The notes beneath the pieces were generated by a model. It had not been told where the DNA came from, did no database searches, and saw only the letters and a list, made by a program, of their open reading frames with translations. Both the position numbers and the translations under genes were made by a program. Of a stretch of DNA of 64,000 nt, positions 2,123 through 21,552 are shown one piece after another. Position 1 is the stretch's first letter. Every line of letters starts with the position of its first letter. The stretch is taken from NCBI GenBank assembly GCA_001770015.1, contig MEQB01000022.1:1-64000 (forward strand), given 5' to 3'. Source of the DNA: Bdellovibrionales bacterium RIFOXYC1_FULL_37_79 (GTDB taxonomy: Bacteria > Bdellovibrionota > Bacteriovoracia > Bacteriovoracales > Bacteriovoracaceae).

Positions 2123-2224
2123 GAAACCCTATCTCTTTAAAAAATATTTCCTGGCCCCTTTATTTTATCAGGGATTATATTTTTATATAAAATTGGAGTC
2201 AATTAAAAGGTAAGCTGTCCCATA

Positions 2225-2713: not shown

Positions 2714-2882
2714 GCATCCTTTATCGGAGCAAAATGTCTTTTATTTAATGATTAATAATTTCAATTAGTTATAAAATTACACAAAATTTTGGTATGAAAA
2801 AAGTACATATGCATAGAAGAATTAAATAAAAATACCATAGTTATGATACACTGCGTTATCAACATTTAATATGGTGTATTTT

Positions 2883-5063
2883 ATGAATAAAATTTTTATC
2901 ACTTTTTTGCCCCTTACCATGCTTATTACTGCGCTTATTGTGTCGGCCCAAAATACACTAGCGCGTATTCCCGGCGATCCATCAATGGGTTATCATCAGG
3001 AAAGCTGTCAGGCAGATGATTCTTGTGAAGAGGAGAATCAAGATCAATCCACTTATGCAAAAATAAAAAAGCACTTACTGGAACTCGATCTTAATTTCAG
3101 TATCGACCTCCTGAAAATTGAATTGCTTGAAGGCATCGATTTTATAACCAAATACCGTTACGACTCAGAACCTTCATACCATAACGGTTATTATACCCGC
3201 ATCGATAAATGGGATGCTAAGTTTAAAATTAACGCTGGCGAACTTTTGGAAAACATCGTTGGTGAACTGCCTTTTGGTAACACCATTCAACCAGGCAAAA
3301 GTATTATTTTTGTACGCCAGTATAAGGATCAATTGAAGGCCCGTACGGCACTGCCTATCAATCCAATATTAAAACTGCCTCGAAATGCTAAAATAGCCCA
3401 AGACTTGGAGGAAGGAACTTTCGTATCAATGCAAACTTACTTGAATCTCATCACCAGAATTGGCCCTGACGTTGCCCAGACTTCTATTATTGAAGCCGAG
3501 GCAGGTGCGCTTTATTTAATCAGCGGAGAATTTACCACCCAGATTTTTAAATTGGCCAACAACCGCATTCGCCTAAAGGCTATTTATAATACCAGCAAAG
3601 GTCCCGGTCTTTATTTTAAAATCGACCTTGCTCCCCAAATTGATATCGCTTCCGGTTTAACCAACGATCTAATTAACAACGCTTTGGACTTTGAACTATT
3701 TGAAGCCAGTTACGACAAGGAAAAGGGATATATGCTGGCCTATGATTACTTTCTGGATCTATCTTACCCGGAAGTGCAAAAAGCCTATAATGCCTTTATT
3801 AAATCTTCCTTTAAATTTGCTCCTGAGAAGGCTAAACTTATTTTTGGCAATAAGAAACAACTCATCACCACTTCCATCGCCAATCTTGAACCCATCCACG
3901 AAATTTTTATGCAAGATATAGACAAACCACAAGAGAAAAGACGGGTGGATAAGAAATTTGAAGCCTCCAATGATTACCAAATGAAAACTTTTTCGGTTTC
4001 CTTTGACACTAAATTATTTGAACTCAAGGCTAAAGACATTAAAAGTACCAATTATATCGTCCATACCGATCAAAATGAGATAAAGTCCTTTTATCAATTT
4101 GATACCTTTTCCAAAAAAAATGAATTTAATCTCTTCTTCAGTGTTTTTGACCGTAAAACCATAAATGATTCCTACGTCCTCTACCAAGCGGATCAAGACG
4201 AAAAACTGACCAATCTGGACAACGCTGATTTTGGAATATCTTTAGAGAAAAGTTATCCAGCTTTCTCCAGGGATGAACAATTATATGTACAAAAATACTT
4301 ATTGAACAACCTACCTCGATCCATTTATAAAAGGATAGAATGGAACAAGATTATTTCTCTCTCCAAAGAGGACATTAAAAAAAGAAAATCCATTGGCGCA
4401 CAAAATGCTTTTTACACCACACAAGACCAAAAAAGCGGCAAATTCCGCTGGCAAATTCATTTTCACAAAAGTATATTTGATACCGTTGCCCAGTCAGATG
4501 ACCGCGAATTAGACCAACGCTTATCTGCACTTATTGAAAAATATATCGGTACCGGCCCTACCACCCAGTCCAGGATTAAAGCGTTATACCCTACAGGGGA
4601 CAAACCGGTGAATCCAACTGCTAACAATGACGACACTTGCAATCTAAATGGTTTGGAAAATTATAAAAAACAATTCATCAAGTTAATCCGGAAATATGTA
4701 AATGAGCAAGGTGATTCCACAGATTCCAAAGCGACAAAAAACCAATATTTAGCGAGAATTCTAAACACTGAAATTTTTCAAAATGTTGGGATTGCCTTTT
4801 TAAGCAGCTTTATAAGTGAAGAGGATCTGGAAAATTTGGTGACCTTTAATCTAATGTGGACTTCCAAAGAAGTGGCCCAAAATTTGGGCAAGGACTACAC
4901 TTTTGCGTTTGGAAAATCGGAACACGCTGATCTTTTTAATCACATGACTTACCTTACAGGAACCATGCAAAACCGCAGCTTTGATTTAAGGCTGGTGGGG
5001 TACGATGTTACTAATGTTCCTGATTACAAACACTGGCTGGATGATGATACTCCCCAGAAATAA
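2883..5063 (+). CDS. Large exported protein of unknown function (726 aa)
   Basis: The chosen ATG at 2883 has a GGTG 6 nt upstream and gives a clean signal peptide (MNKIFITFLPLTMLITALIV...AQNTLA). An ATG 12 nt earlier is also in frame. The mature protein begins with an acidic Cys-containing segment (CQADDSCEEE) and continues as a mixed alpha/beta sequence without recognisable catalytic motifs. Two further Cys-free stretches carry many Lys/Asp/Phe residues. A single Cys sits at DDTCNLNG near residue 585. Nothing in the sequence identifies a family. It is probably periplasmic or surface-located. The gene ends 11 bp from the convergent hypB. Confidence 0.75.
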   Translation: MNKIFITFLPLTMLITALIVSAQNTLARIPGDPSMGYHQESCQADDSCEEENQDQSTYAKIKKHLLELDLNFSIDLLKIELLEGIDFITKYRYDSEPSYHNGYYTRIDKWDAKFKINAGELLENIVGELPFGNTIQPGKSIIFVRQYKDQLKARTALPINPILKLPRNAKIAQDLEEGTFVSMQTYLNLITRIGPDVAQTSIIEAEAGALYLISGEFTTQIFKLANNRIRLKAIYNTSKGPGLYFKIDLAPQIDIASGLTNDLINNALDFELFEASYDKEKGYMLAYDYFLDLSYPEVQKAYNAFIKSSFKFAPEKAKLIFGNKKQLITTSIANLEPIHEIFMQDIDKPQEKRRVDKKFEASNDYQMKTFSVSFDTKLFELKAKDIKSTNYIVHTDQNEIKSFYQFDTFSKKNEFNLFFSVFDRKTINDSYVLYQADQDEKLTNLDNADFGISLEKSYPAFSRDEQLYVQKYLLNNLPRSIYKRIEWNKIISLSKEDIKKRKSIGAQNAFYTTQDQKSGKFRWQIHFHKSIFDTVAQSDDRELDQRLSALIEKYIGTGPTTQSRIKALYPTGDKPVNPTANNDDTCNLNGLENYKKQFIKLIRKYVNEQGDSTDSKATKNQYLARILNTEIFQNVGIAFLSSFISEEDLENLVTFNLMWTSKEVAQNLGKDYTFAFGKSEHADLFNHMTYLTGTMQNRSFDLRLVGYDVTNVPDYKHWLDDDTPQK

Positions 5064-5074
5064 GGCTCATTATT

Positions 5075-5782
5075 TCAAGAATTTTTCTGGCAGAGATAAT
5101 CGCACCACTCGCTCATCCCCTCTCCGGTTTTAGCGCTGGTCAAGATAATCCGTGCGTTTGGATTAATCATTCTGATATTCTGTTTGGTTTTTTCCAAATC
5201 CCACTCCAGATAAGGAATTAAATCGGATTTAGTAATCACCACCACCGACGCCTTATGAAACAAAACCGGATATTTGTTGGGTTTATCTTCACCTTCAGTG
5301 GTGGATAAAAGGGCCACCTTGTGCTTTTCTCCAAGCTCAAAGGAAGCCGGGCAAACTAAATTACCTATGTTTTCAATAATTAAAATCTCTTCTTCCCCAG
5401 TGATAAATGGCCCTATTTCTTTTTCAATCATGGAGGCATCCAAGTGGCAAGAGCTGTAGGTATTTATTTGCTTAACTCTCCCCCCCTTGCCCATCAATCT
5501 TTGAGCATCATTATCAGTTTGTTGATCTCCAACCAGTACACTTATTTTTTTCTTGTCCCCAAGCATTTGCAGGGTTTTTTCCAGCAGCCTGGTTTTCCCA
5601 GAGCCGGGTGAACTCATAAGATTGAATACTTCCATCTTATGATCATCAAAATAATGCCAGTTATGATGAGCAATATGATCATTATGCTCTAAAATGCTTT
5701 TTTCCAATTCAATGGATTGAGAATGTTCATGATCATGAAAATAATCTTTTCCACCTTCGTGGCAACCGCAATCCTGGCACAT
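5075..5782 (-). CDS. hypB: HypB, nickel-delivering GTPase for [NiFe]-hydrogenase maturation
   Basis: HypB hydrolyses GTP while inserting nickel into the hydrogenase large subunit with HypA. At 235 residues it has the expected parts. These are an N-terminal CQDCGC metal site, a His-rich stretch (residues about 7-48, many HD/HH pairs) that probably stores nickel, a Walker A SSPGSGKT, the metal-binding Cys-His pair in TYSSCHLDAS, and a TKSD base-specificity motif. It overlaps the hypA stop by one base (TAATG), so the two are translationally coupled. It ends 11 bp from the convergent exported-protein gene. Confidence 0.96.
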   Translation of the reverse strand: MCQDCGCHEGGKDYFHDHEHSQSIELEKSILEHNDHIAHHNWHYFDDHKMEVFNLMSSPGSGKTRLLEKTLQMLGDKKKISVLVGDQQTDNDAQRLMGKGGRVKQINTYSSCHLDASMIEKEIGPFITGEEEILIIENIGNLVCPASFELGEKHKVALLSTTEGEDKPNKYPVLFHKASVVVITKSDLIPYLEWDLEKTKQNIRMINPNARIILTSAKTGEGMSEWCDYLCQKNS

Positions 5783-6123
5783 TAGTAAGCCTCCATATTT
5801 TTAATTTTAAGTTCATTTCCGGTTTCTATACGAACCTGGCCTGACCCGCAATGCTCGCAACACATAATAAATACCTCAGGGCTGGATTTGAGATTACATG
5901 CCAAACATTCGAGGGTTAAGGGAATTTCATTGATGACCAGATGGCATTCCTCCAGAAGGGTTTGCTTGGTGGCCAAAGGCCAGCAAAACAACAGCGCACT
6001 CTTGGACACACCACTCATGGTACCAATATCCAGGGTGATTTCACTCACTTTACCAAAGTGGTCATCGTGGCAAATTTTTTCCACACTATTAATTACTGAC
6101 CTGGCAATGGACAACTCATGCAT
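5782..6123 (-). CDS. hypA: HypA, nickel chaperone for hydrogenase maturation
   Basis: The protein is 113 residues, the normal size for HypA/HybF. It starts MHEL, with His2 as the nickel ligand, and carries a structural zinc site from CLAC and CCEHC near residues 73-95. The start codon lies about 100 bp from the divergent hypF start, leaving a short shared promoter region. An AGGG sits 7 nt before the ATG. It partners with HypB, which follows directly. Confidence 0.96.
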   Translation of the reverse strand: MHELSIARSVINSVEKICHDDHFGKVSEITLDIGTMSGVSKSALLFCWPLATKQTLLEECHLVINEIPLTLECLACNLKSSPEVFIMCCEHCGSGQVRIETGNELKIKNMEAY

Positions 6124-6225
6124 AAAAAACCCTATCTCTCATTTCCCCAAACATCTGCTTCCGACGTTATCACAGTACTGAAAAATTGTCACTTGCCTGT
6201 GATCATGATAAAAAAGGGCCAATAT

Positions 6226-8448
6226 ATGCAAAATGTAATACGACTCAAAGTAATCGTCACCGGGATCGTTCAAGGCGTTGGAATGCGCCCAACCATCTAT
6301 CGCCATGCCATCAATTCAAAAGTCACCGGCCAAGTAAGTAATACGCCACAAGGTGTTTTAATTGAAGTGCAAGGAAATGCCCTCCAAGTCGCCGCTTTTA
6401 TGGAGCAGTTAAAAAACGCCCCTCCCCCCCAAGCACTTATTGAAAATATCAACTCAACCCACATACCACCACTCCTTGAAAGTGTCGGATTTTTAATTAC
6501 TGAAAGCAATCATTCAGGAAACAAAAGTACCGATATCTCTCCCGACCTTGCCACCTGCCCGGATTGCCTTAAGGAAATTTTTGATCCCACCAATCGCCGT
6601 TTTCAGTATGCTTTTACCAACTGTACCAATTGCGGGCCGAGATTTACCATTATCAAAGACCGCCCTTATGATAGGCCGTTAACCAGTATGAACTCTTTTC
6701 CTATGTGTAAAGCATGTTCTGCCGAATACCATGATCCCCTCAATCGCAGATATCATGCCCAACCCAATGCCTGTAAGGATTGTGGGCCTAGGCTTTCCAT
6801 CCTTGGTATGAACTCCGCCGATCCGTTAAATGACACCGTCACCTTTTTAAAAAATGAAAAGATTGTTGCCATCAAAGGACTGGGTGGATTTAATATTGCC
6901 TGCCTGCCCTATGGACCAAGTCTCAAAAAAATTCGTGAACTTAAAAAGCGGCCTACCAAATCCTTTGCGCTTATGGCGAAAAATATCTTCGTGATCGAAA
7001 AATATTGCCATGTATCTGCACAGGAAAATGCGGCCCTGCGCTCTTGTCAAGCTCCCATTGTACTACTTAAAAAGAAAGAAGGAGCAAGTGTTTTATCCGA
7101 CGTCTCTCCTGATAATAACTATCTGGGATGTATGCTCCCCTACACACCACTGCACCATCTAATCATGGAACACTTTGATTTTCTCATCATGACCAGTGCT
7201 AACGAAAAAGATGAACCAATCGCCAGCAACGACTTTGAGATCACCCAACTGCTTGAAAAATCCTTTGTCGACTATGTATTAACCCATAACCGGGAAATCA
7301 TTCACCGGGCCGACGACTCCATCATCCAGTTTATTAGGGGTAAAAAACAAATCATTCGCCGTTCACGGGGCATCGTTCCCCTGCCCTTGTACCCTCAGCA
7401 AAATTTGTCCCTTGAAAATAGGCTTTGCCTGGGCGCCAATATGAAAAATACTTTTGCGCTTAAAGCAGGTAACAAAATTTATCTTTCCCAGCATATCGGT
7501 GAACTCATTGACCACCGCAATCATGAATTTCAAAAACAAGAAATCGAAAATCTCATGGCACTGCTTGATATCGATGCCAAAAAAACCAATATCGATGCCC
7601 ACCCTGGTTACGAAAACTTTAATCCAGACTTTAAACAGGTGTTTCATCATCATGCTCACTTTTTATCTGTTATCGGTGAACATTCCCTTACCCCCTCGGA
7701 AACTTTAGGTATTATTTGTGATGGAACAGGATTTGGCACTGATGGCAATATTTGGGGTTTTGAATTTCTAAAAATAAAAGATGATCTGCCCACTTTTGAA
7801 AGAGTGGCCCATTTAGATTATTTTGAACTGCCCGGATCTGAGCGGGCCATTTATGAAGTTGATCGCCTGAAAATTTCTCTTTTAAATCAAAGCATGGATA
7901 ACCTTGATCGGATTGCCCCGGCACAAAGAGTAAAAGAAATCTTAATGCTGATTGATAAAAAACTTAATACCCCGCTGACTTCTTCCTTGGGACGGCTTTT
8001 TGATGGGGTCGCCGCTATTTTGAACGTGGCATCAGTTGCTACCTATGAGGCCCAAGCTGCCATATTGTTACAAAAAGCGGCAGAAAATAACCCTAACTTC
8101 CAGTGTACTTCCTACCCGGTAAAAATAATTGAAAGTGACCTTTTAAAAATTGATTATCGACCAATGCTTATCTCCTTAATGGATGATCTTAAACACCATG
8201 TATCCGTATCCGAATGCGCCTATAAATTTCATAAGTGGGTAGTCGATGCCATTATGCAAGTCATCCAAATACTTACACCAACTTCAGTTTGTCTTTCGGG
8301 AGGGTGTTATCAAAACCGGCTTCTGATGGAAATATTGATCGACAAGCTGACTGAATCAAAGATAACTTACTATACCAATGAATTAGTGCCAATCAACGAT
8401 GCCGGAATATCCTTCGGGCAGGCACTGGTGGAGGAAAAATGTGTTTAG
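6226..8448 (+). CDS. hypF: HypF, carbamoyltransferase making the CN ligand precursor
   Basis: HypF converts carbamoyl phosphate and ATP to a thiocarbamate on HypE for the cyanide ligands of the NiFe site. Starting at 6226 (AAGGG 8 nt upstream) gives 740 residues, close to the family norm. In-frame ATGs at 6205 and 6118 would only add an atypical leader. Domains in order: acylphosphatase (GIVQGVGMRP), two zinc-finger pairs (CPDC/CTNC and CKAC/CKDC), a YrdC-like domain (KGLGGFNIAC, SANEKDEPIA) and a Kae1-like carbamoyltransferase domain with metal ligands in HHHAHF. It starts a hypFCDE run and overlaps hypC by 10 bp. Confidence 0.95.
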   Translation: MQNVIRLKVIVTGIVQGVGMRPTIYRHAINSKVTGQVSNTPQGVLIEVQGNALQVAAFMEQLKNAPPPQALIENINSTHIPPLLESVGFLITESNHSGNKSTDISPDLATCPDCLKEIFDPTNRRFQYAFTNCTNCGPRFTIIKDRPYDRPLTSMNSFPMCKACSAEYHDPLNRRYHAQPNACKDCGPRLSILGMNSADPLNDTVTFLKNEKIVAIKGLGGFNIACLPYGPSLKKIRELKKRPTKSFALMAKNIFVIEKYCHVSAQENAALRSCQAPIVLLKKKEGASVLSDVSPDNNYLGCMLPYTPLHHLIMEHFDFLIMTSANEKDEPIASNDFEITQLLEKSFVDYVLTHNREIIHRADDSIIQFIRGKKQIIRRSRGIVPLPLYPQQNLSLENRLCLGANMKNTFALKAGNKIYLSQHIGELIDHRNHEFQKQEIENLMALLDIDAKKTNIDAHPGYENFNPDFKQVFHHHAHFLSVIGEHSLTPSETLGIICDGTGFGTDGNIWGFEFLKIKDDLPTFERVAHLDYFELPGSERAIYEVDRLKISLLNQSMDNLDRIAPAQRVKEILMLIDKKLNTPLTSSLGRLFDGVAAILNVASVATYEAQAAILLQKAAENNPNFQCTSYPVKIIESDLLKIDYRPMLISLMDDLKHHVSVSECAYKFHKWVVDAIMQVIQILTPTSVCLSGGCYQNRLLMEILIDKLTESKITYYTNELVPINDAGISFGQALVEEKCV

Positions 8449-8675: not shown

Positions 8676-9718
8676 GTGACTATGAAAAAATTCAAATTCT
8701 CAGGGACAAAATCCACCAACTTTCCCGCACCGAAGTCTCTTTTATGGAGGTGTGTGGCACTCACACCATGAGTGTGGCCAAACATGCTATTAAATCCATG
8801 CTTCCCAAAACCATCAATATCGTCTCCGGGCCTGGTTGTCCTGTTTGTGTCACTTCTCAAACAGATATTGAAATGAGTCTTATCCTGGCCAGATCAGAAA
8901 ACAAAATTATTTGTACCTTTGGAGATATGATCAAAGTCCCCTCCCGCCAGGATAGTCTTTCCAATTATAAAAATGTAAAAATTATCTACTCTCCTTTGGA
9001 CGCATTAAAAATTGCCCACGAAAATCCAAAACAGGAAATTATCTTGCTAGGTATTGGTTTTGAGACCACTACCCCACTGATTGCGGTCACTATTAAAACG
9101 GCCAAGCAAGAGGGTATTAAAAATTTTTCAGTTTTATCAATGCATAAAACGGTGCCATCCGCCCTGCAACTGATCTTATCATCACCGGATATTGCCCTTC
9201 ATGGCCTGATTCTTCCAGGACATGTCAGTGCGATCACCGGTAGAAAATATTTTGATTTCATCAAAGACTATCACACCAGCGGAGTGGTGGCGGGCTTTGA
9301 GGCCTTAGATATCATGGAGTGTATTTATCTTTTAACCAAATTGGTGGAAGAAAACCAAGTTGAGGTGATCAATAACTATAAACGCATTGTATCCGAGGAA
9401 GGCAACCAGATCGCCATGCAGCTACTTTACGAAGTTTTTGAAGACAGCAACTGTCAATGGAGAGGTATCGGTGAAATTCCCAAAAGCGGTTTAAAAATCA
9501 GGGAACCGTTTCAAACCTATGATGCCAAAATCAAATTTGATATTCCAATAGAAAATATTCCTGAACCAAAACACTGCAGATGTGGCGAAATCTTGATGGC
9601 AAAAAAATCCCCCCCGGATTGTCTGCTTTTTAAAAATACCTGCACCCCTCTAAATCCAATAGGACCTTGCATGGTTTCTTCCGAAGGAACCTGTGCAGCC
9701 TATTATAAATATCTTTAG
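8669..9718 (+). CDS. hypD: HypD, Fe-S scaffold for Fe(CN)2CO assembly
   Basis: HypD, with HypC, is the platform on which iron receives CO and cyanide. The 349 residues contain the conserved motifs FMEVCGTHT, GPGCPVCV and GFETTTP. The Cys-rich C-terminal part (CRCGE, CLLFKNTC, GPCMVSSEGTC) holds the 4Fe-4S cluster ligands. It is embedded in hypFCDE, 7 bp overlapping hypC and 9 bp before hypE. Confidence 0.96.
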   Translation: MLSDYEKIQILRDKIHQLSRTEVSFMEVCGTHTMSVAKHAIKSMLPKTINIVSGPGCPVCVTSQTDIEMSLILARSENKIICTFGDMIKVPSRQDSLSNYKNVKIIYSPLDALKIAHENPKQEIILLGIGFETTTPLIAVTIKTAKQEGIKNFSVLSMHKTVPSALQLILSSPDIALHGLILPGHVSAITGRKYFDFIKDYHTSGVVAGFEALDIMECIYLLTKLVEENQVEVINNYKRIVSEEGNQIAMQLLYEVFEDSNCQWRGIGEIPKSGLKIREPFQTYDAKIKFDIPIENIPEPKHCRCGEILMAKKSPPDCLLFKNTCTPLNPIGPCMVSSEGTCAAYYKYL

Positions 9719-9727
9719 GAGAAAATC

Positions 9728-10720
9728 ATGCACACGATCACACTTAACCACGGGCTCGGTGGCAAACAAATGCATGAGTTCATTAAAAATTCCATTATGA
9801 CCAAACTGCAAAACGGCATCCTGGAAAAAATGGATGACAGTGCCATTTTAAAAAATTTAAAAACCAATCGTCTTGCGCTTACCACTGATAGCTATGTGGT
9901 GAGTCCACTGATTTTTCCAGGGGGGGACATTGGACGATTATGTGTTTGTGGCACGGTCAATGACTTAACCACCAGCGGGGCAAAACCTCATGCCCTGACG
10001 CTTTCCTTTATCATTGAAGAAGGCATGGATCTATCTGTGCTTGATACCATTATAGATTCCATTGCTCAAACGGCACAAGAGGCCCAGATTCAAATTGTAA
10101 CTGGTGATACCAAAGTCGTTGAAAAAGGCAAAGGAGATAAGCTTTTTATCAACACCAGTGGCATTGGTTTCATTGAGGACCATGTTGATATTTCGACCTA
10201 CCATACTAAAGACGACGATGATATTTTAATAACCGGGCCAATTGGCAATCATGAAATTGCCATGATGAAGGCCAGAAACCTCATTGATTTTGATTTGACC
10301 ATTGAAAGTGACGTGCGTCCTCTTAATCTACCCATTGAAAATTTATTAAAGCAAAAGGTGTTGCTTCATAGTATTAAAGACCCCACCCGCGGAGGACTTG
10401 CCAGCGCTTTGTATGAAATTGTGGAACACTCTCAGGTGGAAATCACCCTGTTTGAAAAAGATATACCCATTGATAATGTCGTTAAATCGGTGTGTGCGCT
10501 AGTGGGATTTGATCCCCTTTATCTTGCTAACGAAGGCAAGTTCATTATCACCTGTCCAAAAAAATCAAGCCAGGATGTCATCAAGGCATTTGGTGGTGTT
10601 GCGCAAATCATTGGCAAGGCAAAAAAATCAAATCACCCCAAACTCCTCATGCAAACCGAGTCTGGCGGAATTCGAAAAATCGGTATGCTAGAGACCATGC
10701 AGCTGCCCAGGATCTGCTAG
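9728..10720 (+). CDS. hypE: HypE, thiocyanate-forming hydrogenase maturation protein
   Basis: HypE dehydrates the C-terminal thiocarboxamide made by HypF to a thiocyanate, the source of the CN ligands. It has 330 residues and starts with the NHGLGGKQMHEF region. Metal and nucleotide segments typical of the PurM fold follow (TTDSYVVSP, CGTVNDLTTSGA, TGDTKVVEKG, DPTRGGLASAL). It ends in the essential PRIC tail with the acceptor Cys. AGGAG sits upstream of the ATG. The last nine codons and stop lie in a 105-bp sequence repeated at 17397; the copy there differs by one silent base (TGC to TGT in the terminal Cys codon). Confidence 0.96.
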   Translation: MHTITLNHGLGGKQMHEFIKNSIMTKLQNGILEKMDDSAILKNLKTNRLALTTDSYVVSPLIFPGGDIGRLCVCGTVNDLTTSGAKPHALTLSFIIEEGMDLSVLDTIIDSIAQTAQEAQIQIVTGDTKVVEKGKGDKLFINTSGIGFIEDHVDISTYHTKDDDDILITGPIGNHEIAMMKARNLIDFDLTIESDVRPLNLPIENLLKQKVLLHSIKDPTRGGLASALYEIVEHSQVEITLFEKDIPIDNVVKSVCALVGFDPLYLANEGKFIITCPKKSSQDVIKAFGGVAQIIGKAKKSNHPKLLMQTESGGIRKIGMLETMQLPRIC

Positions 10721-10796
10721 GCTCAGTAATTACAATAATTTTCTCTTTGAAAATATTTTTCACAAATGTTTGCGCTATTGCGGCAATCGGATACAT
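10692..10796. repeat. Left copy of a 105-bp direct repeat (island boundary)
   Basis: It is identical to 17397-17501 except at 10717 (C here, T there). It begins inside hypE (AGACCATGCAGC) and ends at CGGATACAT. The right copy encodes the natural C-terminal tail of the exported protein at 17428. The ancestral state was therefore probably hypE meeting that gene tail to tail with 2 bp between their stop codons. Structure suggests an attL-like junction or a long target duplication. Confidence 0.95.
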
Positions 10797-11211
10797 GTTT
10801 GGCCAAAATCTTTAGATATTGTAAAATCGAGATACCCTTCAGAGTAATCCAGTTTCACTGACATACAAACCAAGACAACAATTCCATTATCCAACGTCTT
10901 TATTGTAGGATTACCAGCAATGTCCATTGATTCATGTTTATAATATAAAGCTTTACTCCATGTTTTTCCGTAATCTTCTGAAACACTATAACAACATTTG
11001 TTTTCAGGTAAGTCTGTATAGTCTGGTGAATTCGCAAACCACTTCCCTTTTATCAATTCCATCCAAGAAGCAACTATGTTCTTGCCGTCATTTGTATGAC
11101 CTGTTACTATTTCGAAGACGTTTTTATCCATCGTTGGGAGAACAAGGATGCAAAACTTTGCGTTTTACAAAATCCAACCATCAAAAATATTGTCAAAATA
11201 ATTTTTACCAT
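10775..11211 (-). pseudogene. Broken exported BNR/sialidase-repeat protein
   Basis: The open part at 10775-11131 (118 aa) has two Asp-box-like BNR segments, SEDYGKTWS and SKDFGQT, as in sialidases and other beta-propellers. Upstream, a good signal peptide (MVKIILTIFLMVGF...SFA from 11211) lies in a different frame, so about one base has been lost or gained near 11140. The second BNR box is cut exactly where the island meets the left 105-bp repeat; the tail CIRLPQ is read out of frame from the repeat. It is therefore both frameshifted and truncated and is probably not functional. Confidence 0.7.
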
Positions 11212-11278
11212 AAAATACTTACATCTCATATCTCCAGGGATAATTTTGGTAAACTAATATTTTTAACTTAAGTATTAT

Positions 11279-12109
11279 TTGCTTACTCTTCCGTACAATG
11301 ACAACAATCGAGTTAATTACGCTTTAATCTTCATTACCATTGATGTTAATAATGAGTGGATCATAAGATTTTATAGAAATGATGTTGCTACAAGAAACAC
11401 GGTAAAGAGGATTCCATTTTTAAAAAATTTCTCCAAAGTATCCCCCTTGAAAATACCATGCCCCGAAATTCACAATGATGAGTTCATGGCGTACAAAACT
11501 ATTCATGGTGAACACTTAAGTATTTATGAAATTGAACATTTAGATACACTAAGCAGAGTGAAAATAGCTGAGCAGCTTGGAAATTTTCTAAAGAATCTAC
11601 ATAATTTTAGTGATGATAATATAAACTTTCCACCAGAGTATTTCATGATGGTTAGGGATTATTATAACAGCTATCCTAAGCAAATATTTGATAGTTTGGA
11701 TGCTGATGAACGTAAGATAATGGATAATAAATTTAAGGCTATCAAAAATAATGATAGAAACTTTATTACTCCTACTGCCATTATCCATAGTAACTTACAC
11801 TATAAAAATATCTTATGGGATAGAGAAAAGAAGAAGCTTAATGGAGTTATTGACTTTGCCCAAGTAGGACTGGCAATAACTGCGATGGATTTCATCCAAC
11901 TGACAAATTTTAACACCCATAAAAATGATCAATTTTTAAAAGATATTCTGCACGCTTATGGCAAAGACGAAGTAGAGCTTTTTACCCAGATAAAGGAACT
12001 ATCTATACTTGAACCGCTAAACTATTATTGGTGGTATGAAAAAAACAATATGCCCGAAGGTATGGAAAAAATCATCATGAAACTTAAAACGATACTGCAC
12101 GCCCAATAG
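11279..12109 (+). CDS. Aminoglycoside phosphotransferase-family protein, probably catalytically altered
   Basis: The 276-residue protein has the late APH/choline-kinase features. There is an LGNFLKNLH helix, a Brenner-type loop HSNLHYKNILWD and the metal-binding VIDFAQVG. In active members the loop reads HxDxxxxN; here the catalytic Asp is Asn (CAT AGT AAC). The N-terminus starts at a TTG with no clear ribosome site and only a partial nucleotide-binding lobe (EWIIRFYRND), and an in-frame stop lies 15 bp upstream, so the 5' end may be missing. It sits inside the island. The substrate is unknown; a resistance role is not supported. Confidence 0.6.
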   Translation: MLTLPYNDNNRVNYALIFITIDVNNEWIIRFYRNDVATRNTVKRIPFLKNFSKVSPLKIPCPEIHNDEFMAYKTIHGEHLSIYEIEHLDTLSRVKIAEQLGNFLKNLHNFSDDNINFPPEYFMMVRDYYNSYPKQIFDSLDADERKIMDNKFKAIKNNDRNFITPTAIIHSNLHYKNILWDREKKKLNGVIDFAQVGLAITAMDFIQLTNFNTHKNDQFLKDILHAYGKDEVELFTQIKELSILEPLNYYWWYEKNNMPEGMEKIIMKLKTILHAQ

Positions 12110-12245
12110 CCGCCTTGCGGAATCTACACATGACAACAAAAGAATATTCCACACCTGCATAGAATTTACCCTCATTAACTAACCACTTTACAATTAAATA
12201 TCACCTAAGCTAGGATTCACCAAAAAAACTTCCCAAGGAATGTAT

Positions 12246-14972
12246 ATGGCCAAAGCTCTTTGTTTATCCCTTGTTATATTTCTTTTTTCATTTTCAATCA
12301 GTTCCAAAGAAATCATTACTCACTGTAATCTTACCAAAAAAGAAATTGCTCAATCCGAACTAAAAGGAGCAAAACTAATTGATGTTTCATTTAACCAAGA
12401 AGGCCAAAGATGTGCGAGTTTTTTGAACCTCGAAAAGCTTAATAAAGGCCTGCCACCCAAGAAACCTATAGTTTATGATGATTTCGATTCTCCAGATAAT
12501 AATAACTTAGATCCAAAAGATGATGGTATCCTTGTCCAACTTAAGAAAATGGCCAGTTCAAATCCTGAAATTATTAAATATCATGAGATTGGTTACAGTC
12601 ACCAAAAGCGTCCTATCGTTGCACTACAAATTGGGAATAATAATATAACCCAAAATAGAATTCTCCTGGTTGGCCTTCACCACGCCAGGGAATGGGTAAC
12701 CACCGATCTCCTCATGCGTTTTCTTTATTTAGTAATTGATCCTTCAAACCAGGACATACGCGATTTATTACAAAATATAGAAGTCTGGGTTATTCCTGTT
12801 ATAAACCCTGATGGTTACCAATATACCTTTACTCCAGATGGGCAAAACTGGAGAAAAAATATGCGGGATAATAATAATAACGGTATTTTTGAACCAAACC
12901 TGGATGGAGTGGATCTCAACCGAAATTATGATTATCTCTGGTCCTTTGATGAGTGGGGTGCCTCTTCCATGCCTTCGTCTTGGACTTATCGTGGAAAATC
13001 TCCTTTCAGTGAACCTGAAACACTTGCTTTAAAAAATTTAATGCTTGAAAAACATTTCTCTTTTGCTATCTCCTATCATACATATGGAAATTTAATTCTC
13101 TATCCCACCAGTTATCTTCCTTCAAAACGCCCAGCCGACTGGCCACTTTTTACCTTTCTTGCTGGTACCAAAGATACTCCGGCCATCTATGACAGTTCCC
13201 TGAATTCAAAATATTCGCCTATGATGGGGTCAGAACTTTATACTACCAATGGTGATTTTGATGACTGGGCCTATCACGTATCCAAAACCATACCTTTCAC
13301 GATTGAATTAACCAACTTGGAAGAAAATAGTTTTAATTATCCTGATGATGAAAAGCTATTACAAACCGTCTTCGCAGATAATCTTCCCTTTATCGTCGAT
13401 CTAATGAAATCGGGAGCAAATCCCGAGTCTCCATCATCGCATATAAATAGTAAGCTTCAAGATTTTTTACATGAACCCATTACGCAATCTTATGGCCAGA
13501 TCCAAACCTTGGAAGTTTTTTCCCGTAAAGGCAAAACATCCAGAGTTCATTTCTACAACAATGAAACCGTCCCAGATAAATATAGAACTCTATCCCCCAC
13601 AGACCAAGGGATCTACTTTGATATCCAGCAGACCAAAATCCTTAACGAATCAGGCGTTGTTCACTACTGGTTTGAAACGCTTAATTTTGAAGGAAACTCT
13701 GTTATAACTCCCCAAAGCGGAACTTATAAGTTCACCATCCAAAATAATACCAATAATAAAATTCTATTGGTTTCAGCAGAGCTTGGCGACCAGGCCCAAA
13801 GACCTAAATATCTTCCTCAATATCTTCATCTTTTAAAAGAAGCAAATCTAGAAAATAAATTCGATATTATTATAAAAAATCCAAGCGAAATTCTCGGATT
13901 TTTTGAAATTTTGTCCCATTACGATTTAATCATTTGGTATACCGGTGATAACAATTTTCCTTGGGATTATGGACAGGAATTTGAAATCAACCGTTTCATA
14001 AGAGACGCTCACGGGAAATTTCTTTTCAGTGGCAATCTGGATAATGGTTACCTTAATCTTCCAAACACCCTGTCGGCCCTTGAAAATCTTTTATTCTACG
14101 GTTTTGGAATAGAATCCCATATGACCGGACTCGGAGCAACTCTTTTAAATGAATCATTAACTATTGCTAGCACCCCTGATGATATTTTTTTAAAAGGAAA
14201 ATCTATAAAACTTAATCCGCTTAACAAAAATGATAAGATGGGAATGCTTAGGCCAAGTAAAACTTATCAATCATCACTTAGTCATGGTTTCATTTCATCA
14301 GATAAAGGTTTTACTTATTTGAAAAAGAATCCTGGTGTGTTTTCAACCAACATTCTCTCTTCCCCTATAACACTTCCCAGCTTGGATTCCTCTCTCACCT
14401 TCCAAATCGGTATGATTTATATGCTTGAAGAGGTTGTTGCTTTTTTAGAGATTCACAATGTGGATGATGGAAAACGATCTTCCATCTCTCCAAGCTCCGG
14501 TATATGTGAGTATGATGCTCCCGGTATGCAAACGGTTAATCCAGAGGATTTAAACTCCATCCCTGATCTAAAACCTTACTACGATGAATTTGGCCATATG
14601 AGAAGGTTAAGTGATGGTTCAGCTGCTTTAAAAGTTCTTTGCTGGACTGATGGGGGATATGCAAACGCTAAGTTTGATCTATCCCCTTTTAAAGGACAAA
14701 ATATTGAAATTCGCCTGGTTTTTGTCGATTTTGGAGCCGAGTCACTTGCTGGTGATACAGGAGTTGTAACTGATTTCTTAATACCCGAACTACCGCTAAT
14801 CATCTTACCCGTTACCCATAATGGTAATTGGAATAAGGGATTAATCAACCTACCGCTTACTCCGATGGTCACTACTGATCAAACAGTTTTTCTAACTTTT
14901 GGATTCGAAGACATGGAAAATTCAACCGAGCAGTTTTTGCTATTTGAAAATATTCTAGGCCATTTGTTTTAA
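12246..14972 (+). CDS. Exported M14 zinc carboxypeptidase with long C-terminal extension
   Basis: The ATG at 12246 has AAGGA 6 nt upstream (a second in-frame ATG at 12240 overlaps that site) and gives a signal peptide (MAKALCLSLVIFLFSFSISS). The M14 catalytic domain spans about residues 90-390. It has the zinc ligands HHARE (about residue 144) and the His of SYHTYG (about 276), a VDLNRNYDY substrate-binding segment, and the general-base Glu in FTIELTNLEEN (about 353). The remaining 500 residues include an all-beta region with a Cys pair, resembling accessory domains of secreted peptidases. It should remove C-terminal residues from peptides outside the cytoplasm. It overlaps the convergent 14969 gene by 4 bp. 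Confidence 0.88.
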   Translation: MAKALCLSLVIFLFSFSISSKEIITHCNLTKKEIAQSELKGAKLIDVSFNQEGQRCASFLNLEKLNKGLPPKKPIVYDDFDSPDNNNLDPKDDGILVQLKKMASSNPEIIKYHEIGYSHQKRPIVALQIGNNNITQNRILLVGLHHAREWVTTDLLMRFLYLVIDPSNQDIRDLLQNIEVWVIPVINPDGYQYTFTPDGQNWRKNMRDNNNNGIFEPNLDGVDLNRNYDYLWSFDEWGASSMPSSWTYRGKSPFSEPETLALKNLMLEKHFSFAISYHTYGNLILYPTSYLPSKRPADWPLFTFLAGTKDTPAIYDSSLNSKYSPMMGSELYTTNGDFDDWAYHVSKTIPFTIELTNLEENSFNYPDDEKLLQTVFADNLPFIVDLMKSGANPESPSSHINSKLQDFLHEPITQSYGQIQTLEVFSRKGKTSRVHFYNNETVPDKYRTLSPTDQGIYFDIQQTKILNESGVVHYWFETLNFEGNSVITPQSGTYKFTIQNNTNNKILLVSAELGDQAQRPKYLPQYLHLLKEANLENKFDIIIKNPSEILGFFEILSHYDLIIWYTGDNNFPWDYGQEFEINRFIRDAHGKFLFSGNLDNGYLNLPNTLSALENLLFYGFGIESHMTGLGATLLNESLTIASTPDDIFLKGKSIKLNPLNKNDKMGMLRPSKTYQSSLSHGFISSDKGFTYLKKNPGVFSTNILSSPITLPSLDSSLTFQIGMIYMLEEVVAFLEIHNVDDGKRSSISPSSGICEYDAPGMQTVNPEDLNSIPDLKPYYDEFGHMRRLSDGSAALKVLCWTDGGYANAKFDLSPFKGQNIEIRLVFVDFGAESLAGDTGVVTDFLIPELPLIILPVTHNGNWNKGLINLPLTPMVTTDQTVFLTFGFEDMENSTEQFLLFENILGHLF

Positions 14973-15961
14973 AAACAGTATGAGTGCACTTTAATTTTAT
15001 TTCCAATATCATCTTGTTTAAACCGGTAAATTACGGTTTTGTAATCATCGTTTTCTTCAATATCGCAACCGACACTATTGTTAAAAATATTTCTATCTCT
15101 ATCCGATAAATTTCTTAAGATTTGCGTTTCAATTTTTTCGTTACTTTCTCTGGCATCGATCGAAAGCACATTATATATATTTTCGCCGCCAAACCATTCA
15201 AATGCTCTATTATCTGCAACATACTTTCCGGCCAAAAGACCATCAGGGTGATAATTGCTATCCAAGATAATTGGAGAGTTTGCTCCTATTTCATTTTGTT
15301 CATTTGAAAAAATCTGCAAATGACTACCGTTTGGCATGATGATTTCTTCGAGCGCAGTTGTATCAGTAGTGTTGATTATTCTTGGAGTAAATGAGATATC
15401 AAAACTATCGTTATAATATGATTGATTGAGATAGAAATTTTTTCTCTGTGTATTTTCATGCATACAGGTGAATCTTATACTATCGTAAATTCTTTTATTT
15501 ACATAAAATATGGATTGTCCGCAACTTAGATTTTTAACCTCTGACAAATCTGGATATGTCGGATTCAAAACGTTAAGATTAATTGCTAATTCGAAATTAT
15601 CTTTATCTAAGCGAATGCGATCATCAAGTTTAGGAGCAATAACCATTAATTGGATGAAAAATGCCTCGTAACGACAAAGAAGATGTTTATATTTGTCGAA
15701 ATCAATTTTCAAACTATATTTTCCGTTCTTAATTTTGCTATTAATTAATACTTCTTTAGTCCTTATTGAAGGACGAATAATATCATTTAAGCATACGAGC
15801 GTATTCCTTGTACCTTGATACGTTACATATGCTTTTAAGCTAAACCCAGAGGGGATTTTACCTTGAATGTGGAAAAATTTCTTAGACGCTTTTTCGCTTG
15901 CACATATTGCTGAGTTTAAAAGTAATAAAAATAACGTTAATCCTAAAAATATTTTTTCCAT
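14969..15961 (-). CDS. Exported protein of unknown function (330 aa)
   Basis: The start at 15961 is chosen because GGGGT lies 5 nt upstream and a clear signal peptide follows (MEKIFLGLTLFLLLLNSAICASE). Earlier in-frame codons up to 16060 would overlap the upstream gene. The mature part looks beta-rich, with a few cysteines (LVCLND, LLCRYE, LSCGQS, FTCMHE, VGCDIEE). No known domain is recognised. It lies in the island downstream of the DUF1232 gene. Confidence 0.65.
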   Translation of the reverse strand: MEKIFLGLTLFLLLLNSAICASEKASKKFFHIQGKIPSGFSLKAYVTYQGTRNTLVCLNDIIRPSIRTKEVLINSKIKNGKYSLKIDFDKYKHLLCRYEAFFIQLMVIAPKLDDRIRLDKDNFELAINLNVLNPTYPDLSEVKNLSCGQSIFYVNKRIYDSIRFTCMHENTQRKNFYLNQSYYNDSFDISFTPRIINTTDTTALEEIIMPNGSHLQIFSNEQNEIGANSPIILDSNYHPDGLLAGKYVADNRAFEWFGGENIYNVLSIDARESNEKIETQILRNLSDRDRNIFNNSVGCDIEENDDYKTVIYRFKQDDIGNKIKVHSYCF

Positions 15962-16052
15962 AATTACCCCATATGAAAATGACTTTTGGGGCAAGCTACA
16001 TTTGTTGCTTACATATTTAAATTGATTATTATCAATTTGCACAAAATAAAAA

Positions 16053-16433
16053 TCATCCAAACCAGGACTTTAGTTTTTCTTCAGCTAATTTAACCACTCC
16101 TTCGTCTATATAAGCAGTCACAGTTGCTAGTGCAGCGACAAGAACCCCTATGTCGTCTGAGTAGCCGATTACAGGAGTAAAATCGAAGATTGCATCGATT
16201 GGTGAGATAAAATACCCCAAAGCACCAATAATTATGGTCTTGGTCCAAGCAGGTATTTCTGGCCTTTGCAAAACGTAGTACAATTTTAATGCCACGAAAA
16301 TAATTTCTTTGCCAGCTTTCAAGGCATGTCTACGGACTTTCTTCCAAAAGTTTTCTTCTGAATATTTTTTTGAATATTTATCATATTTCTTTTGATCTTT
16401 TTCAGTAACAGATTCACCGTATTTTTGTTGCAT
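16053..16433 (-). CDS. DUF1232 (YkvA-like) small protein
   Basis: The 126-residue protein has the DUF1232 signature in its second half: a hydrophobic helix followed by GYFISPIDAIFDFTPVIGYSDD and a second hydrophobic helix (VLVAALATVTAY). Family members are small membrane-associated proteins of unknown role. The N-terminal half is highly charged (MQQKYGESVTEKDQKK). It sits within the island between the HNH remnant and the exported orphan. Confidence 0.85.
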   Translation of the reverse strand: MQQKYGESVTEKDQKKYDKYSKKYSEENFWKKVRRHALKAGKEIIFVALKLYYVLQRPEIPAWTKTIIIGALGYFISPIDAIFDFTPVIGYSDDIGVLVAALATVTAYIDEGVVKLAEEKLKSWFG

Positions 16434-16504
16434 GCGACATCCTTTTTTTTTGATTTTTGACTATGATAAGGTCTCTGGCAAACAGCGATAATGTTTCAAT
16501 GCAA

Positions 16505-17184
16505 TTAACTACATTTCGCCATCTCAAAATATTCTTTTTCCTTATCCTCAACCACCAAACTATACTTCTCTTTGATTTTAAACCACTGCTGCATAAATTT
16601 ACAGGCATAATTGCGATCAATAGGCATCCACTGGGTAATATCTTTTGAACCTTTGTCTGTTATATTTTCGATTGGTGATAATTAAATTTTTCGGATCATT
16701 CGCAAATTTTCTTTTTTCTTCAAAACTCCAGAGGGAACCTCCGTGATCGTACGCATGTTTCAATGAAACAAGTTGATCAATATCGACATCTGAAGCTTGA
16801 TATAATATTTCACTATAATAGTAGTCATCCCATTTCCCAGAAATAACTTTACAAGTTTTTTTATCCAGTTTCGCAGCCGTTAAACTGCGCTCAATTAAGA
16901 TTGCTGCCCTTGTATCCTTACAATCACCATCTTCATCAATCCAATGCTTCCAATCTGCCCTTCTATATTTCAAATCGCTGGTTGTTACCGGTATCTGGGA
17001 ATCGTCATAAGGTTCGACTTGGATGCTTTTACCATGACAATGAAATTCACTGCTAGATTTTTGAGTATGGCATCCTTTAAATATTCCTGATTTGTTAACT
17101 CCACCGGTATGAGAACAACCAATATTACAAAATAAAACAAATAATAAAACAATTAAGAATTATGTAGTTGAATACTATTTTCAA
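16505..17184 (-). pseudogene. Frameshifted exported HNH (DUF1524/GmrSD-like) nuclease with HxGG...YHCH-type domain
   Basis: Three frames must be joined. From a TTG at 17184 (GAGG 8 nt upstream) a signal-peptide-like start is read (KIVFNYIILNCFIICFIL). It then shifts to CSHTGGVNKSG...FHCHGKS, the small Cys/His domain often found before such nucleases, and on to RADWKHWIDEDGDCKDTR, DVDIDQLVSLKHAYDHGG and FANDPKNLIITN. Near 16655 a second shift leads to KGSKDITQWMPIDRNYACKF and a stop at 16505. The intact family has DxDHxVPL where this reads DIDQLVSL, so the catalytic His is Gln. It is probably a dead secreted nuclease. Confidence 0.75.
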
Positions 17185-17396
17185 GATAAATTCCTCATTT
17201 TAATTATTATTTTCCTTTTTAATATTACTCCCAGCTCTCTTTTTGTTCAGATTCCAACTTGGCGATCTTAACTTTCTTAACCTTCAATTGAGCGTTTCAA
17301 TCTTCTTTAGATGAATAGAAAATATTTTTTTGCCAAATTTTAAGCAGTTAAATCTGAGATAGCGAAAGACTTAAATTATAATTTATCTAAGTCTGA
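17185..17396. other. Island right-end non-coding stretch with an inverted repeat next to the direct repeat
   Basis: No complete gene is visible. A 7-bp perfect inverted repeat (AGACTTA at 17367-17373, TAAGTCT at 17388-17394) abuts the right copy of the 105-bp repeat. On the minus strand near 17225-17285 a short reading frame ends in KIAKLESEQKESWE, which could be the tail of a lost gene; its upstream stop leaves only about 20 codons. Confidence 0.4.
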
Positions 17397-17501
17397 AGAC
17401 CATGCAGCTGCCCAGGATCTGTTAGGCTCAGTAATTACAATAATTTTCTCTTTGAAAATATTTTTCACAAATGTTTGCGCTATTGCGGCAATCGGATACA
17501 T
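17397..17501. repeat. Right copy of the 105-bp direct repeat
   Basis: It matches 10692-10796 at 104 of 105 positions. It contains a copy of the hypE PRIC tail and stop (with a synonymous change) and, on the other strand, the last 24 codons of the exported-protein gene 17428-17994. The reading of that gene through the repeat is coherent (SDCRNSANICEKYF), so this copy is native to it. Confidence 0.95.
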
Positions 17502-17994
17502 TATAGGAGATGATGTGACCATCACGACAGATCCGGCTTTCGGCTTGCAAAAGCCTGATCTCCAATGACCCTTCCAATACCACTTCCTGCTTTTTTAAAA
17601 ATTGATAGCGAACCACATTCCTTCCTTCCCCAATGAGTGGTGCTTGAGTTAAGGTCTGATGGGCAAGATTAATTGGATTATTTGACCGGTTACGTTTACT
17701 GTCGTAGCCTTTGGTTTTCTTAACCACTTTTCCATTTTGCCAGGTTGATTCCAAATAGATTTTATCCGCCACCACCTCTTTGGGACCGTGGAAATAAGAA
17801 TATCTGGAGGGATCAACCCTGGTCCCTCTACATCTGAAAAAAGCATTTCCCGCATTTGAATGGTCAAAACAACTGACCGTTAATAACCCCGAAATATGTG
17901 AATAGGTCAGATCCTCTCCCACCCCAAAGCCGGGAGTAAAAGAATAAGCACTCAAAGATAAAATGAACCATCCAATAGCCATCAGTGATTTCAT
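17428..17994 (-). CDS. Exported Cys-containing protein of unknown function (188 aa)
   Basis: The ATG at 17994 has AAGGA 7 nt upstream; a GTG two codons earlier is an alternative. A signal peptide (MKSLMAIGWFILSLSAYS) is followed by a beta-rich domain. The tail has regularly placed cysteines (ICRDG, SDCRNS, ICEKYF, YCNY), likely disulfides. The last 24 codons lie in the 105-bp repeat. No family is recognised with confidence. In the inferred ancestral locus it would be the convergent neighbour of hypE. Confidence 0.7.
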   Translation of the reverse strand: MKSLMAIGWFILSLSAYSFTPGFGVGEDLTYSHISGLLTVSCFDHSNAGNAFFRCRGTRVDPSRYSYFHGPKEVVADKIYLESTWQNGKVVKKTKGYDSKRNRSNNPINLAHQTLTQAPLIGEGRNVVRYQFLKKQEVVLEGSLEIRLLQAESRICRDGHIISYNVSDCRNSANICEKYFQRENYCNY

Positions 17995-18060
17995 AAACAC
18001 TTCCTTGTTTTTATGTCACCTAACATTATAGCAATTTTTTTTATGAAGTAAAAAAAGAAA

Positions 18061-19593
18061 TTATTTTTTTAATACCAGTTCTAAATAGTCAAGATTTCTC
18101 ATAACGATTTCATGGGGCCTTGACGATGTTAAAAACAAGGGCATACTAAAATCAGGAAAATCATTAAATACTCTTTGGGCAATATGATCTGGGTCAATCA
18201 TATATCTCTTGAATACATAATCATAATCCCAGTCAACAAAATCAAACGCCAAAAAAACTAACTCAGAACAAATAATCAATTCGGTAGTAAAAGTGTCAAA
18301 ATTAAAATCATAAGGTTTATTCAAATGAATGAGTCCATTAAAATAAACCCGGTCCATGAGATATGATGGGGGCTGACCGAATCCATCATATCTAAGCACC
18401 AACAGCTCATCCACATCTAAAAAATTCTCCAAACTGGTTAATCTGACGCCACTTCGGACCGACTCCAAAATAACATTGCCCTTGGCAATTTCCTCTTGGA
18501 AAGAATGAATATAGGGGTGATTCCACATCCCTATTTCAATCAACTGTTGTTTGGTTCCCAGCCAAATAGCCGCATGGCCAAAATGACTGGTAATAAGATA
18601 ATTACTAAGACGGTTATAATTTTTATCCAGCAGAACATCCAAAGGTTTCAACTGGGCCAGCAGAATGTCTTTGGCCTTTGTTTGTCCGTACAAATATCCT
18701 TTCGATCGAAGTTTAGTATTTCCGGCAAAATTACCAACCACTTTACTTAAGGCAAATCCGGTCTTACTGATCGATTTTCGAAAAGCATCCCGAATCTTCA
18801 ACATCAGCCGGTGATAGGGTTTTGAAACACTGGTATAAACGTCGTGATGAATAAGGTTTTTATAGTATTCCAATTCTTTTAAAATATCATATATCTCATT
18901 AAAGGATACAGGCTGGTTTGGCCCGTTTTGAGCGTAAGCCTCCATTTTTAAAAAAATGGTTTTCAAGTGAAGTAATTCCTGGGAATTATTTAAATAAATA
19001 TTTAGTGCGTCCAGATGATTCACAGGTATATCATAAGCGCTATCTTTTGAATTCAAATACAATCTGGTAAAAGAATTATAATAGGCCAGATCACAAAGCT
19101 GCAAATAATCATTGACCAGAATACTATGGGCGAGAATCCACCCCATTTTGTCTATAAAATACTCTCCCGGTTCAAAAAGATCATCCACCCCGGTGGAGGA
19201 AGGCAGGAGCGTCCTGGCCAGATGAAATATTTTAACCAATGAATTAATATATTCGGTATAATTTCTTCGAAGTTCGTGATGCTGATTTGCCATGATCGGT
19301 TGTTTATTTTCTTTTTGAATCAAAATTTGAGTCAGGATTATTCTGATATTTTCAACATTTTGCATAGTTACATAGTGGTGATCTAGCAAGTAAGTTATCA
19401 ACTCTTGATGACGAATATTAATAGGATTCGATTCTTTGGCCACAATCATTTTCCGCCGATCAATTTTTCTAAAATATTTTTTCAATTCCTTGGAAAACTG
19501 TTTATCCAAATTGTACGGGTTAAAATCAAAAGCGGCCTGCAATGAAAAACTGAGGTACAAACAAAGAATAATTAAAACAAACTTCATGATCAT
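18061..19593 (-). CDS. Exported permuted papain-like (YiiX/NlpC-P60-type) putative cysteine hydrolase
   Basis: After a signal peptide (MKFVLIILCLYLSFSLQA, second Met at 19587) come about 290 residues of helical sequence, then a C-terminal catalytic-type domain. That domain has SHFGHAAIWLG (candidate catalytic His), LIEIGMWN (polar Glu) and TELIICSELVFLAF (candidate nucleophile Cys). This His-first, Cys-last order matches the permuted papain-like fold of YiiX/YaeF proteins, which cleave amide or ester bonds in lipids or peptides. The substrate is unknown. The start at 19593 or 19587 cannot be decided, since no strong ribosome site is visible. Confidence 0.65.
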   Translation of the reverse strand: MIMKFVLIILCLYLSFSLQAAFDFNPYNLDKQFSKELKKYFRKIDRRKMIVAKESNPINIRHQELITYLLDHHYVTMQNVENIRIILTQILIQKENKQPIMANQHHELRRNYTEYINSLVKIFHLARTLLPSSTGVDDLFEPGEYFIDKMGWILAHSILVNDYLQLCDLAYYNSFTRLYLNSKDSAYDIPVNHLDALNIYLNNSQELLHLKTIFLKMEAYAQNGPNQPVSFNEIYDILKELEYYKNLIHHDVYTSVSKPYHRLMLKIRDAFRKSISKTGFALSKVVGNFAGNTKLRSKGYLYGQTKAKDILLAQLKPLDVLLDKNYNRLSNYLITSHFGHAAIWLGTKQQLIEIGMWNHPYIHSFQEEIAKGNVILESVRSGVRLTSLENFLDVDELLVLRYDGFGQPPSYLMDRVYFNGLIHLNKPYDFNFDTFTTELIICSELVFLAFDFVDWDYDYVFKRYMIDPDHIAQRVFNDFPDFSMPLFLTSSRPHEIVMRNLDYLELVLKK

Positions 19594-20673: not shown

Positions 20674-21048
20674 TTAAAGCTCGCGTTCCAATCTATCAAA
20701 ATTTTCATTAATACAATTAACAAAAAACCAGGAAACTTCATGGTTACTGGCGTTGTTACAGAATCTAAAAAAGACCTGATGATCTAATGCATTTGCGATT
20801 TTTGAAAAATTCTCATTAATACAATGTTCATAAATCATGGATATGCCGTGAGATGAAGTATTGTGACAAGATCGCAAAAAAATCCCCTGTCCCAACGTTC
20901 TGCTCACTTCTGAAAAATTATTATTAACACAAAATCCAAACCCCAGAGAAAAGGTATTGCCAAGATTTGGGCAGTATCTTAAATACACCGCCTCGGCATT
21001 CAATGATAAGAGCATTCCAAGAAATAAAAGGCCAATAATTGATCTCAT
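20674..21048 (-). CDS. Exported Cys-repeat protein, copy 1
   Basis: The ATG at 21048 follows AAGGAGTTTAT; upstream in-frame codons are not needed. A signal peptide (MRSIIGLLFLGMLLSLNAEA) is followed by three repeats of about 35-36 residues. Each has the pattern (Y/F)(L/F)RxC, then 13-14 residues, C(V/I)N(N/E)NF, and a short helix ending in L. Two cysteines per repeat suggest disulfide pairing. It is a close paralogue of the adjacent gene, including the flanking DNA. No known family recognised. Confidence 0.75.
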   Translation of the reverse strand: MRSIIGLLFLGMLLSLNAEAVYLRYCPNLGNTFSLGFGFCVNNNFSEVSRTLGQGIFLRSCHNTSSHGISMIYEHCINENFSKIANALDHQVFFRFCNNASNHEVSWFFVNCINENFDRLEREL

Positions 21049-21067
21049 ATAAACTCCTTTATAATAA

Positions 21068-21097
21068 TTTGTCCCGGACAACGGAGGTTAGGACAAA
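21068..21097 (-). terminator. Hairpin between the two Cys-repeat genes
   Basis: TTTGTCC at 21091-21097 (complement) pairs with GGACAAA at 21068-21074, and the minus strand continues TTATTATAAAGGAG. It corresponds to the hairpin at 21502-21531 in the duplicated flank. The T-run is weak, so read-through is likely. Confidence 0.45.
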
Positions 21098-21099
21098 GA

Positions 21100-21483
21100 T
21101 TAATCTATGTCTATTAATTCACTCTCAACTATATCGAAGTTTTCATTTATACAACTAACAAACTCCCAAGAAACCTTATGCTTTTTGAGATTCATGCAAT
21201 GTCTGAAAGAGACTTGATCGTCCAAAACATCTGCAAGTCTAGAAAAATTCTCATTAATACATTGTTCATACAACTTGGAGACACCTTTAGATGAAGTATT
21301 ATGGCACGTCCCAAACAAAATTCCTTGTCCTAGGGTTCTGCCGACAACTGAAAAATTAATATTCACAAAAGCCTCACAAATCCTAAAGGTAGTATCTAGA
21401 TTTGAACAGGATCTCAAATAAACGGCATTTGCATTCGATGATAAGAATATTCCAAGAAACAAAAGGCTAATGATTGATCTCAT
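21100..21483 (-). CDS. Exported Cys-repeat protein, copy 2
   Basis: This 127-residue protein has the same signal peptide pattern (MRSIISLLFLGIFLSSNANA) and the same triple repeat as copy 1. The cores are YLRSC, LFGTC and SFRHC, each followed by a second Cys in EAFVNINF, CINENF or CINENF form; the first repeat's second Cys is shifted (ICEAF). AAGGAGTTTATATG precedes the start as in copy 1. Recent tandem duplication of a gene plus its leader is the simplest explanation. Confidence 0.75.
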   Translation of the reverse strand: MRSIISLLFLGIFLSSNANAVYLRSCSNLDTTFRICEAFVNINFSVVGRTLGQGILFGTCHNTSSKGVSKLYEQCINENFSRLADVLDDQVSFRHCMNLKKHKVSWEFVSCINENFDIVESELIDID

Positions 21484-21501
21484 ATAAACTCCTTGATAAA
21501 A

Positions 21502-21545
21502 TTTGTCCCTAACAACGGAAGTTAGGACAAAGATTAATCTTTGTC
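21502..21545 (-). terminator. Terminator hairpin plus adjoining perfect palindrome after the acyl-CoA dehydrogenase
   Basis: A stem TTTGTCC-TAAC / GTTA-GGGACAAA (21502-21531, one bulge) is followed on the minus strand by TTTTATC, consistent with an intrinsic terminator for the gene ending at 21553. It overlaps a perfect 20-bp palindrome, GACAAAGATTAATCTTTGTC, at 21526-21545. Confidence 0.55.
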
Positions 21546-21552
21546 TATTTTT

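Follow-up and report, generated by a model that had tools for sequence, protein, structure and literature searches.

A gene block flanked by a 105-bp duplication at a convergent gene junction in a Bdellovibrionales genome has the anatomy of an insertion with long target duplication

Bdellovibrionales bacterium RIFOXYC1_FULL_37_79 carries, at the 3' end of its hypE gene, a block of 6600 bp enclosed between two copies of a 105-bp direct repeat. Judged by its anatomy, the locus shows the addition of a block of genes with duplication of the target. We consider it very probable that a fragment was inserted at the junction between hypE and a convergent gene for a small exported protein, that 105 bp of this junction were duplicated on the occasion, that no integrase drove the reaction, and that the same process has acted elsewhere in the genome. 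The locus lies in a stretch of 64,000 nucleotides that was analysed as a whole (hereafter the window), and its features are the following.

9728..10720, plus strand: hypE (AIRS/AIRS_C; Pfam PF00586/PF02769), left flank; C-terminus conserved in relatives
10692..10796, no strand: target duplication, left copy (repeat comparison and whole-genome search)
10775..11131, minus strand: BNR/Asp-box gene fragment (sub-threshold Pfam BNR matches and sequence reading)
11279..12109, plus strand: APH-like phosphotransferase ORF, TTG start, start of the domain missing (PF01636, 1.3e-17, profile 17-232/239)
12240..14972, plus strand: exported M14 zinc carboxypeptidase, 910 aa, with a long C-terminal extension, intact (PF00246, 4.9e-60)
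14969..15961, minus strand: exported protein, 330 aa from ATG, no family (ORF list and Pfam)
16053..16433, minus strand: DUF1232 protein, 126 aa (PF06803, 6.3e-15)
16500..17160, minus strand: HNH-type (GmrSD_C) gene, frameshifted (intact homologue, 72% at DNA level, at G000:C26)
17397..17501, no strand: target duplication, right copy (repeat comparison and whole-genome search)
17428..18000, minus strand: small exported protein, right flank; same C-terminus in the relatives of G022 and G029

The two copies (10692-10796 and 17397-17501, i.e., with a spacing of 6705) are identical at 104 of 105 positions, with an exact run of up to 79 nt, which far exceeds chance, and a search of the whole 4.36-Mb genome returned these two copies and none besides. 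The lone mismatch is a TGC (10717) against a TGT (17422), both coding for Cys and synonymous in hypE, with the T in the right copy, where hypE is no longer encoded. In the left copy, the last 29 nt of hypE are followed by 2 bp and then by the tail of the exported gene on the opposite strand; the right copy is built alike, and the 3' end of the present exported gene lies within it. When the flanks are joined on a single copy, hypE ends in ...MLETMQLPRIC* and the exported protein in ...KYFQRENYCNY*, and the two genes become convergent with a gap of 2 bp. Both ends are native. Indeed, the relatives of hypE have identical terminal residues, so that its tail is native, and those of the exported protein end in ...RYFDRENNCRY* (G022) and ...RYFWEENYCK* (G029). 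The first-pass annotation, made from the letters of the window, had described this repeat, and we recovered the same coordinates and identity. Its further statements were borne out as well, i.e., that the mismatch is silent in hypE, that the repeat holds the PRIC tail of hypE together with the tail of the exported protein (both native by the C-termini of relatives), and that one copy without the insert would leave the genes tail to tail, 2 bp apart, as we found by joining the flanks.

Among 59 relatives, searched with hypE and with the exported protein, we did not find hypE adjoining the exported gene, and the distribution of hypE itself is patchy across them. DNA of the whole hypE locus gave no match in the same-genus genome G001, in a comparison run without a positive control. 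Since no searched relative keeps the hypE/exported-gene junction, we infer the ancestral order and the empty site of this locus from the restored gene ends. A tandem duplication followed by a deletion was considered and rejected, the bases adjoining the two copies being different on their inner sides.

The insert has a GC content of 0.345, compared to around 0.38 in the sampled genome, and its tetranucleotide composition falls at the low-GC edge of the genome's own range, still inside it and not alien. On its left side the insert seems to start within a gene, because the frame of the BNR fragment stops inside the left repeat copy, partway through an Asp-box-like motif (after SKDFGQT). The first-pass annotation had called the genes of the insert degraded, which stands for the frameshifted HNH-type gene and the truncated BNR gene and fails for the 910-aa M14 carboxypeptidase, the DUF1232 gene, and the gene of the 330-aa exported protein, which are open (the listed ORF of the latter begins at an upstream TTG, 16060). 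The relatives of the carboxypeptidase within its family are at most around 41% identical, and only distant ones are found on plasmids. We did not find a donor for the insert, nor a second copy in the genome except for the 72% homologue of the frameshifted HNH-type gene. No integrase, recombinase, or transposase domain was detected in the ORFs of the insert, as the first-pass annotation had noted for an integrase, and the spaces left between these ORFs could not accommodate an intact recombinase or transposase gene. The M14 and DUF1232 proteins, like the Fic protein of a sister locus described below, match phage-protein families, none of which is an integration function. No RNA family was found in positions 9000-19500.

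To look beyond this locus, we searched 1.92 Mb of the genome for direct repeats that occur as isolated pairs of copies and then read the candidates one locus at a time. Three more loci with the anatomy of the hypE locus were found, with unrelated repeats that are 98.5-100% identical between copies.

C1:149633/151693 (span 149633-151757; L099:9633-11757): 65 bp, 64/65 identical (98.5%)
C21:2676/6059 (span 2676-6129; L143): 71 bp, 100% identical
C11:298210/300009 (span 298210-300166; L157, L158): 158 bp, 157/158 identical (99.4%)

At C1, an insert of 2.0 kb coding for an M48-like exported protein and a 73-aa exported protein stands between convergent DnaJ-domain and CYTH genes. The insert of C21, between convergent genes for a GNAT-like protein and an APP1-type phosphatase, carries a gene for a 1047-aa exported DUF7932 protein. 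At C11, the repeat consists of the tail of a DivIVA-like gene and a spacer, and the cargo is a Fic protein with an N-terminal HTH-type domain. Comparing the four clean loci, we found no similarity between repeats, no common insert ends, and no shared att core, and no terminal inverted repeats above those of shuffled ends. Control sequences (319 kb of G001, 250 kb of unrelated contigs, and 50 kb of E. coli) gave no qualifying repeat pair; the difference between 0 events in these approximately 620 kb and four clean events in 1.9 Mb here is not significant, the controls being too small to decide.

Several other candidates were set aside as sister cases: C14, which involves an IS fragment and has its right copy within a transposase-like ORF; C16, whose left copy is a stray gene fragment; C1:4366 (4366-6837, L086), whose left 71-bp copy is likewise a stray gene fragment; and C22:151158, which belongs to a dispersed repeat family. 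At C1:4366-6837, a HipB/HipA-like pair (by sequence reading) is located between 71-bp fragments of a small HTH-type ORF, and the right copy alone sits in its native gene. The dispersed family (C22:151158-153916, L081, with C33, C17, C52, and C11) is made of repeats of around 200 bp with 10 matches in the genome and a short GC-rich palindrome, and one pair of them brackets small exported genes. A 123-bp repeat, around 92% identical, occurs at G000:C26:153187-160000 (L105) in a region resembling a toxin-antitoxin/defence island; it may have arisen, at an earlier date, in the same way as the hypE locus. The window itself also holds direct repeats around 435 bp apart and 90-97% identical (20804-21550), which are intergenic and flanked by a radical-SAM-like ORF and an acyl-CoA-dehydrogenase-like ORF.

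The sister locus C1 has an empty counterpart. In G001, the one same-genus genome compared, the convergent DnaJ-domain and CYTH genes are separated by 8 bp only, with no insert and one copy of the sequence. The two halves of the C1 locus align to positions 1-1493 and 1430-3145 of G001 L185, and the overlap of these alignments, 64 bp, agrees with the 65-bp repeat; the empty site is at L185:1430-1500. Comparison with this empty site, at the level of DNA sequence, thus shows that a block was added at C1 with duplication of its target. The first-pass annotation had proposed such an empty-site comparison, and at this locus it came out in favour of insertion. At C21, the GNAT orthologue (85%) was found in G001 followed by a different gene, i.e., there is no empty site there.

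Which process could have left such repeats? They could be the attL and attR of a decayed integrative element (an island or a satellite) whose integrase used the 3' end of hypE and has since been lost. Integration at a gene 3' end with restoration of its tail is indeed typical of tyrosine-recombinase islands, and a tyrosine-recombinase-like gene is present elsewhere in the window (60723-61718). Its product has phage-integrase SAM-like domains and a weak catalytic-domain match, is encoded beside housekeeping genes, and shows no sign of a link to the insert. However, a second host gene also ends within the repeat, and it is hard to see why an attP should contain that gene's tail; the insert has no recombinase and little space for one, the parallel loci have no common core site and repeats of different lengths (65 to 158 bp), and a third copy is absent from the genome. 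A tyrosine integrase is unlikely because the repeats have no core in common, range in length from 65 to 158 bp, and comprise two host-gene ends, and we hold the decayed element to be very unlikely. The first-pass annotation had left the choice between an att-type site and a long target duplication. The two host-gene tails and the lack of a recombinase and of a third copy support the latter, and so do the sister loci, with their unrelated repeats of different length, and the empty site of C1. That the second copy was created by the joining of contigs during assembly is extremely improbable: the assembly consists of 74 contigs and has some gaps, and the repeat length is within the k-mer range of assemblers, but one base differs between the copies, the similar loci are 92-100% identical, i.e., of different ages, the flanking genes are base-perfect with no N runs within 3 kb, and an actual empty site corresponding to the C1 locus exists in a second genome.

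In homology-facilitated illegitimate recombination, DNA entering by transformation or conjugation pairs with the chromosome at one end and is joined illegitimately at the other, so that the anchor is duplicated. This process is known from naturally competent bacteria and, with low efficiency, from conjugation in E. coli (PMC3240628). Ku is not required for it. It would nevertheless require a donor DNA that already had the hypE/exported-gene junction beside the cargo, and we regard it as a doubtful explanation. Classical bacterial end joining, which depends on Ku, is unlikely because no Ku homologue (PF02735) was matched in the 96% complete assembly.

Coming back to insertion with duplication of the target, which we favour, the starting point would be hypE and the exported gene facing each other with their 3' ends, 2 bp apart. 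A 6.6-kb fragment with ordinary genes would have entered this junction, and 105 bp of it would have been doubled, one copy on each side, leaving both neighbouring genes whole. The doubling is likely due to repair synthesis, either because the ends of a long staggered break were filled in on both sides of the captured fragment, or because a replication fork used the fragment as template and then returned around 100 bp behind its exit point. Both the staggered-break fill-in and the template switch would give variable long duplications, and the present data fit them alike. Such long duplications would render an insertion at gene 3' ends harmless, which would explain that the surviving events are found at gene tails. 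Insertion may favour the ends of convergent genes, or these may only be the places where it does no harm.

Carrying four or more events that look young, with cargo other than restriction genes and, in one case, an empty site in a sister species, this genome offers a place to study gene uptake without mobile elements. The duplication scars allow the relative dating of events, and both neighbouring genes are kept intact. Whether this lineage has an active and undescribed gene capture, independent of Ku and of known transposases, accepting arbitrary multi-kb inserts mainly at convergent junctions and duplicating 65-158 bp, is a more speculative proposition, to which we give little credence at present; if true, such capture would be a regular route of gene acquisition without mobile elements.

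Several known systems share traits with these loci. Tyrosine-recombinase islands at gene 3' ends also have direct repeats that restore the end of a gene, but here there is no integrase and no common core, and two convergent genes are restored instead of one. Transposons and IS also duplicate their target around the insert; these duplications are typically of a few bases to around 15 bp, and here neither a transposase nor terminal inverted repeats were found. Homology-facilitated illegitimate recombination (PMC3240628) likewise adds foreign DNA to the genome without the action of a recombinase; it differs in that the incoming DNA needs homology and the target repeat would pre-exist on the donor. 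The closest likeness is with the "insertion with long target duplication", named from H. pylori (Nobusato et al. 2000, Gene 259:99, as cited in PMC1643837), where restriction-modification systems are accompanied by duplications "in the order of 100 bp" (PMC3874152). Judging by these two papers, there is no settled mechanism for it. In these accounts, as in our loci, no mobile element is involved, the variable direct repeats of around 100 bp are duplicated target DNA, and the event is recognised by comparison with an empty site, which in our case is that of C1. The published accounts deal mainly with restriction-modification genes of H. pylori, whereas the cargo here (a peptidase, a DUF1232 protein, an APH-like protein, and a broken HNH-type (GmrSD_C) gene, with a Fic protein at C11) is not a restriction-modification system, the lineage is unrelated, and several events are found in one genome. 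Restriction-modification cargo is typical of the reported cases and stands outside the structural definition. By its anatomy, the hypE locus is thus a member of this class, as read from its sequence; the phenomenon was known already, and what is new is the lineage, the non-restriction cargo, and the occurrence of several events in one genome.
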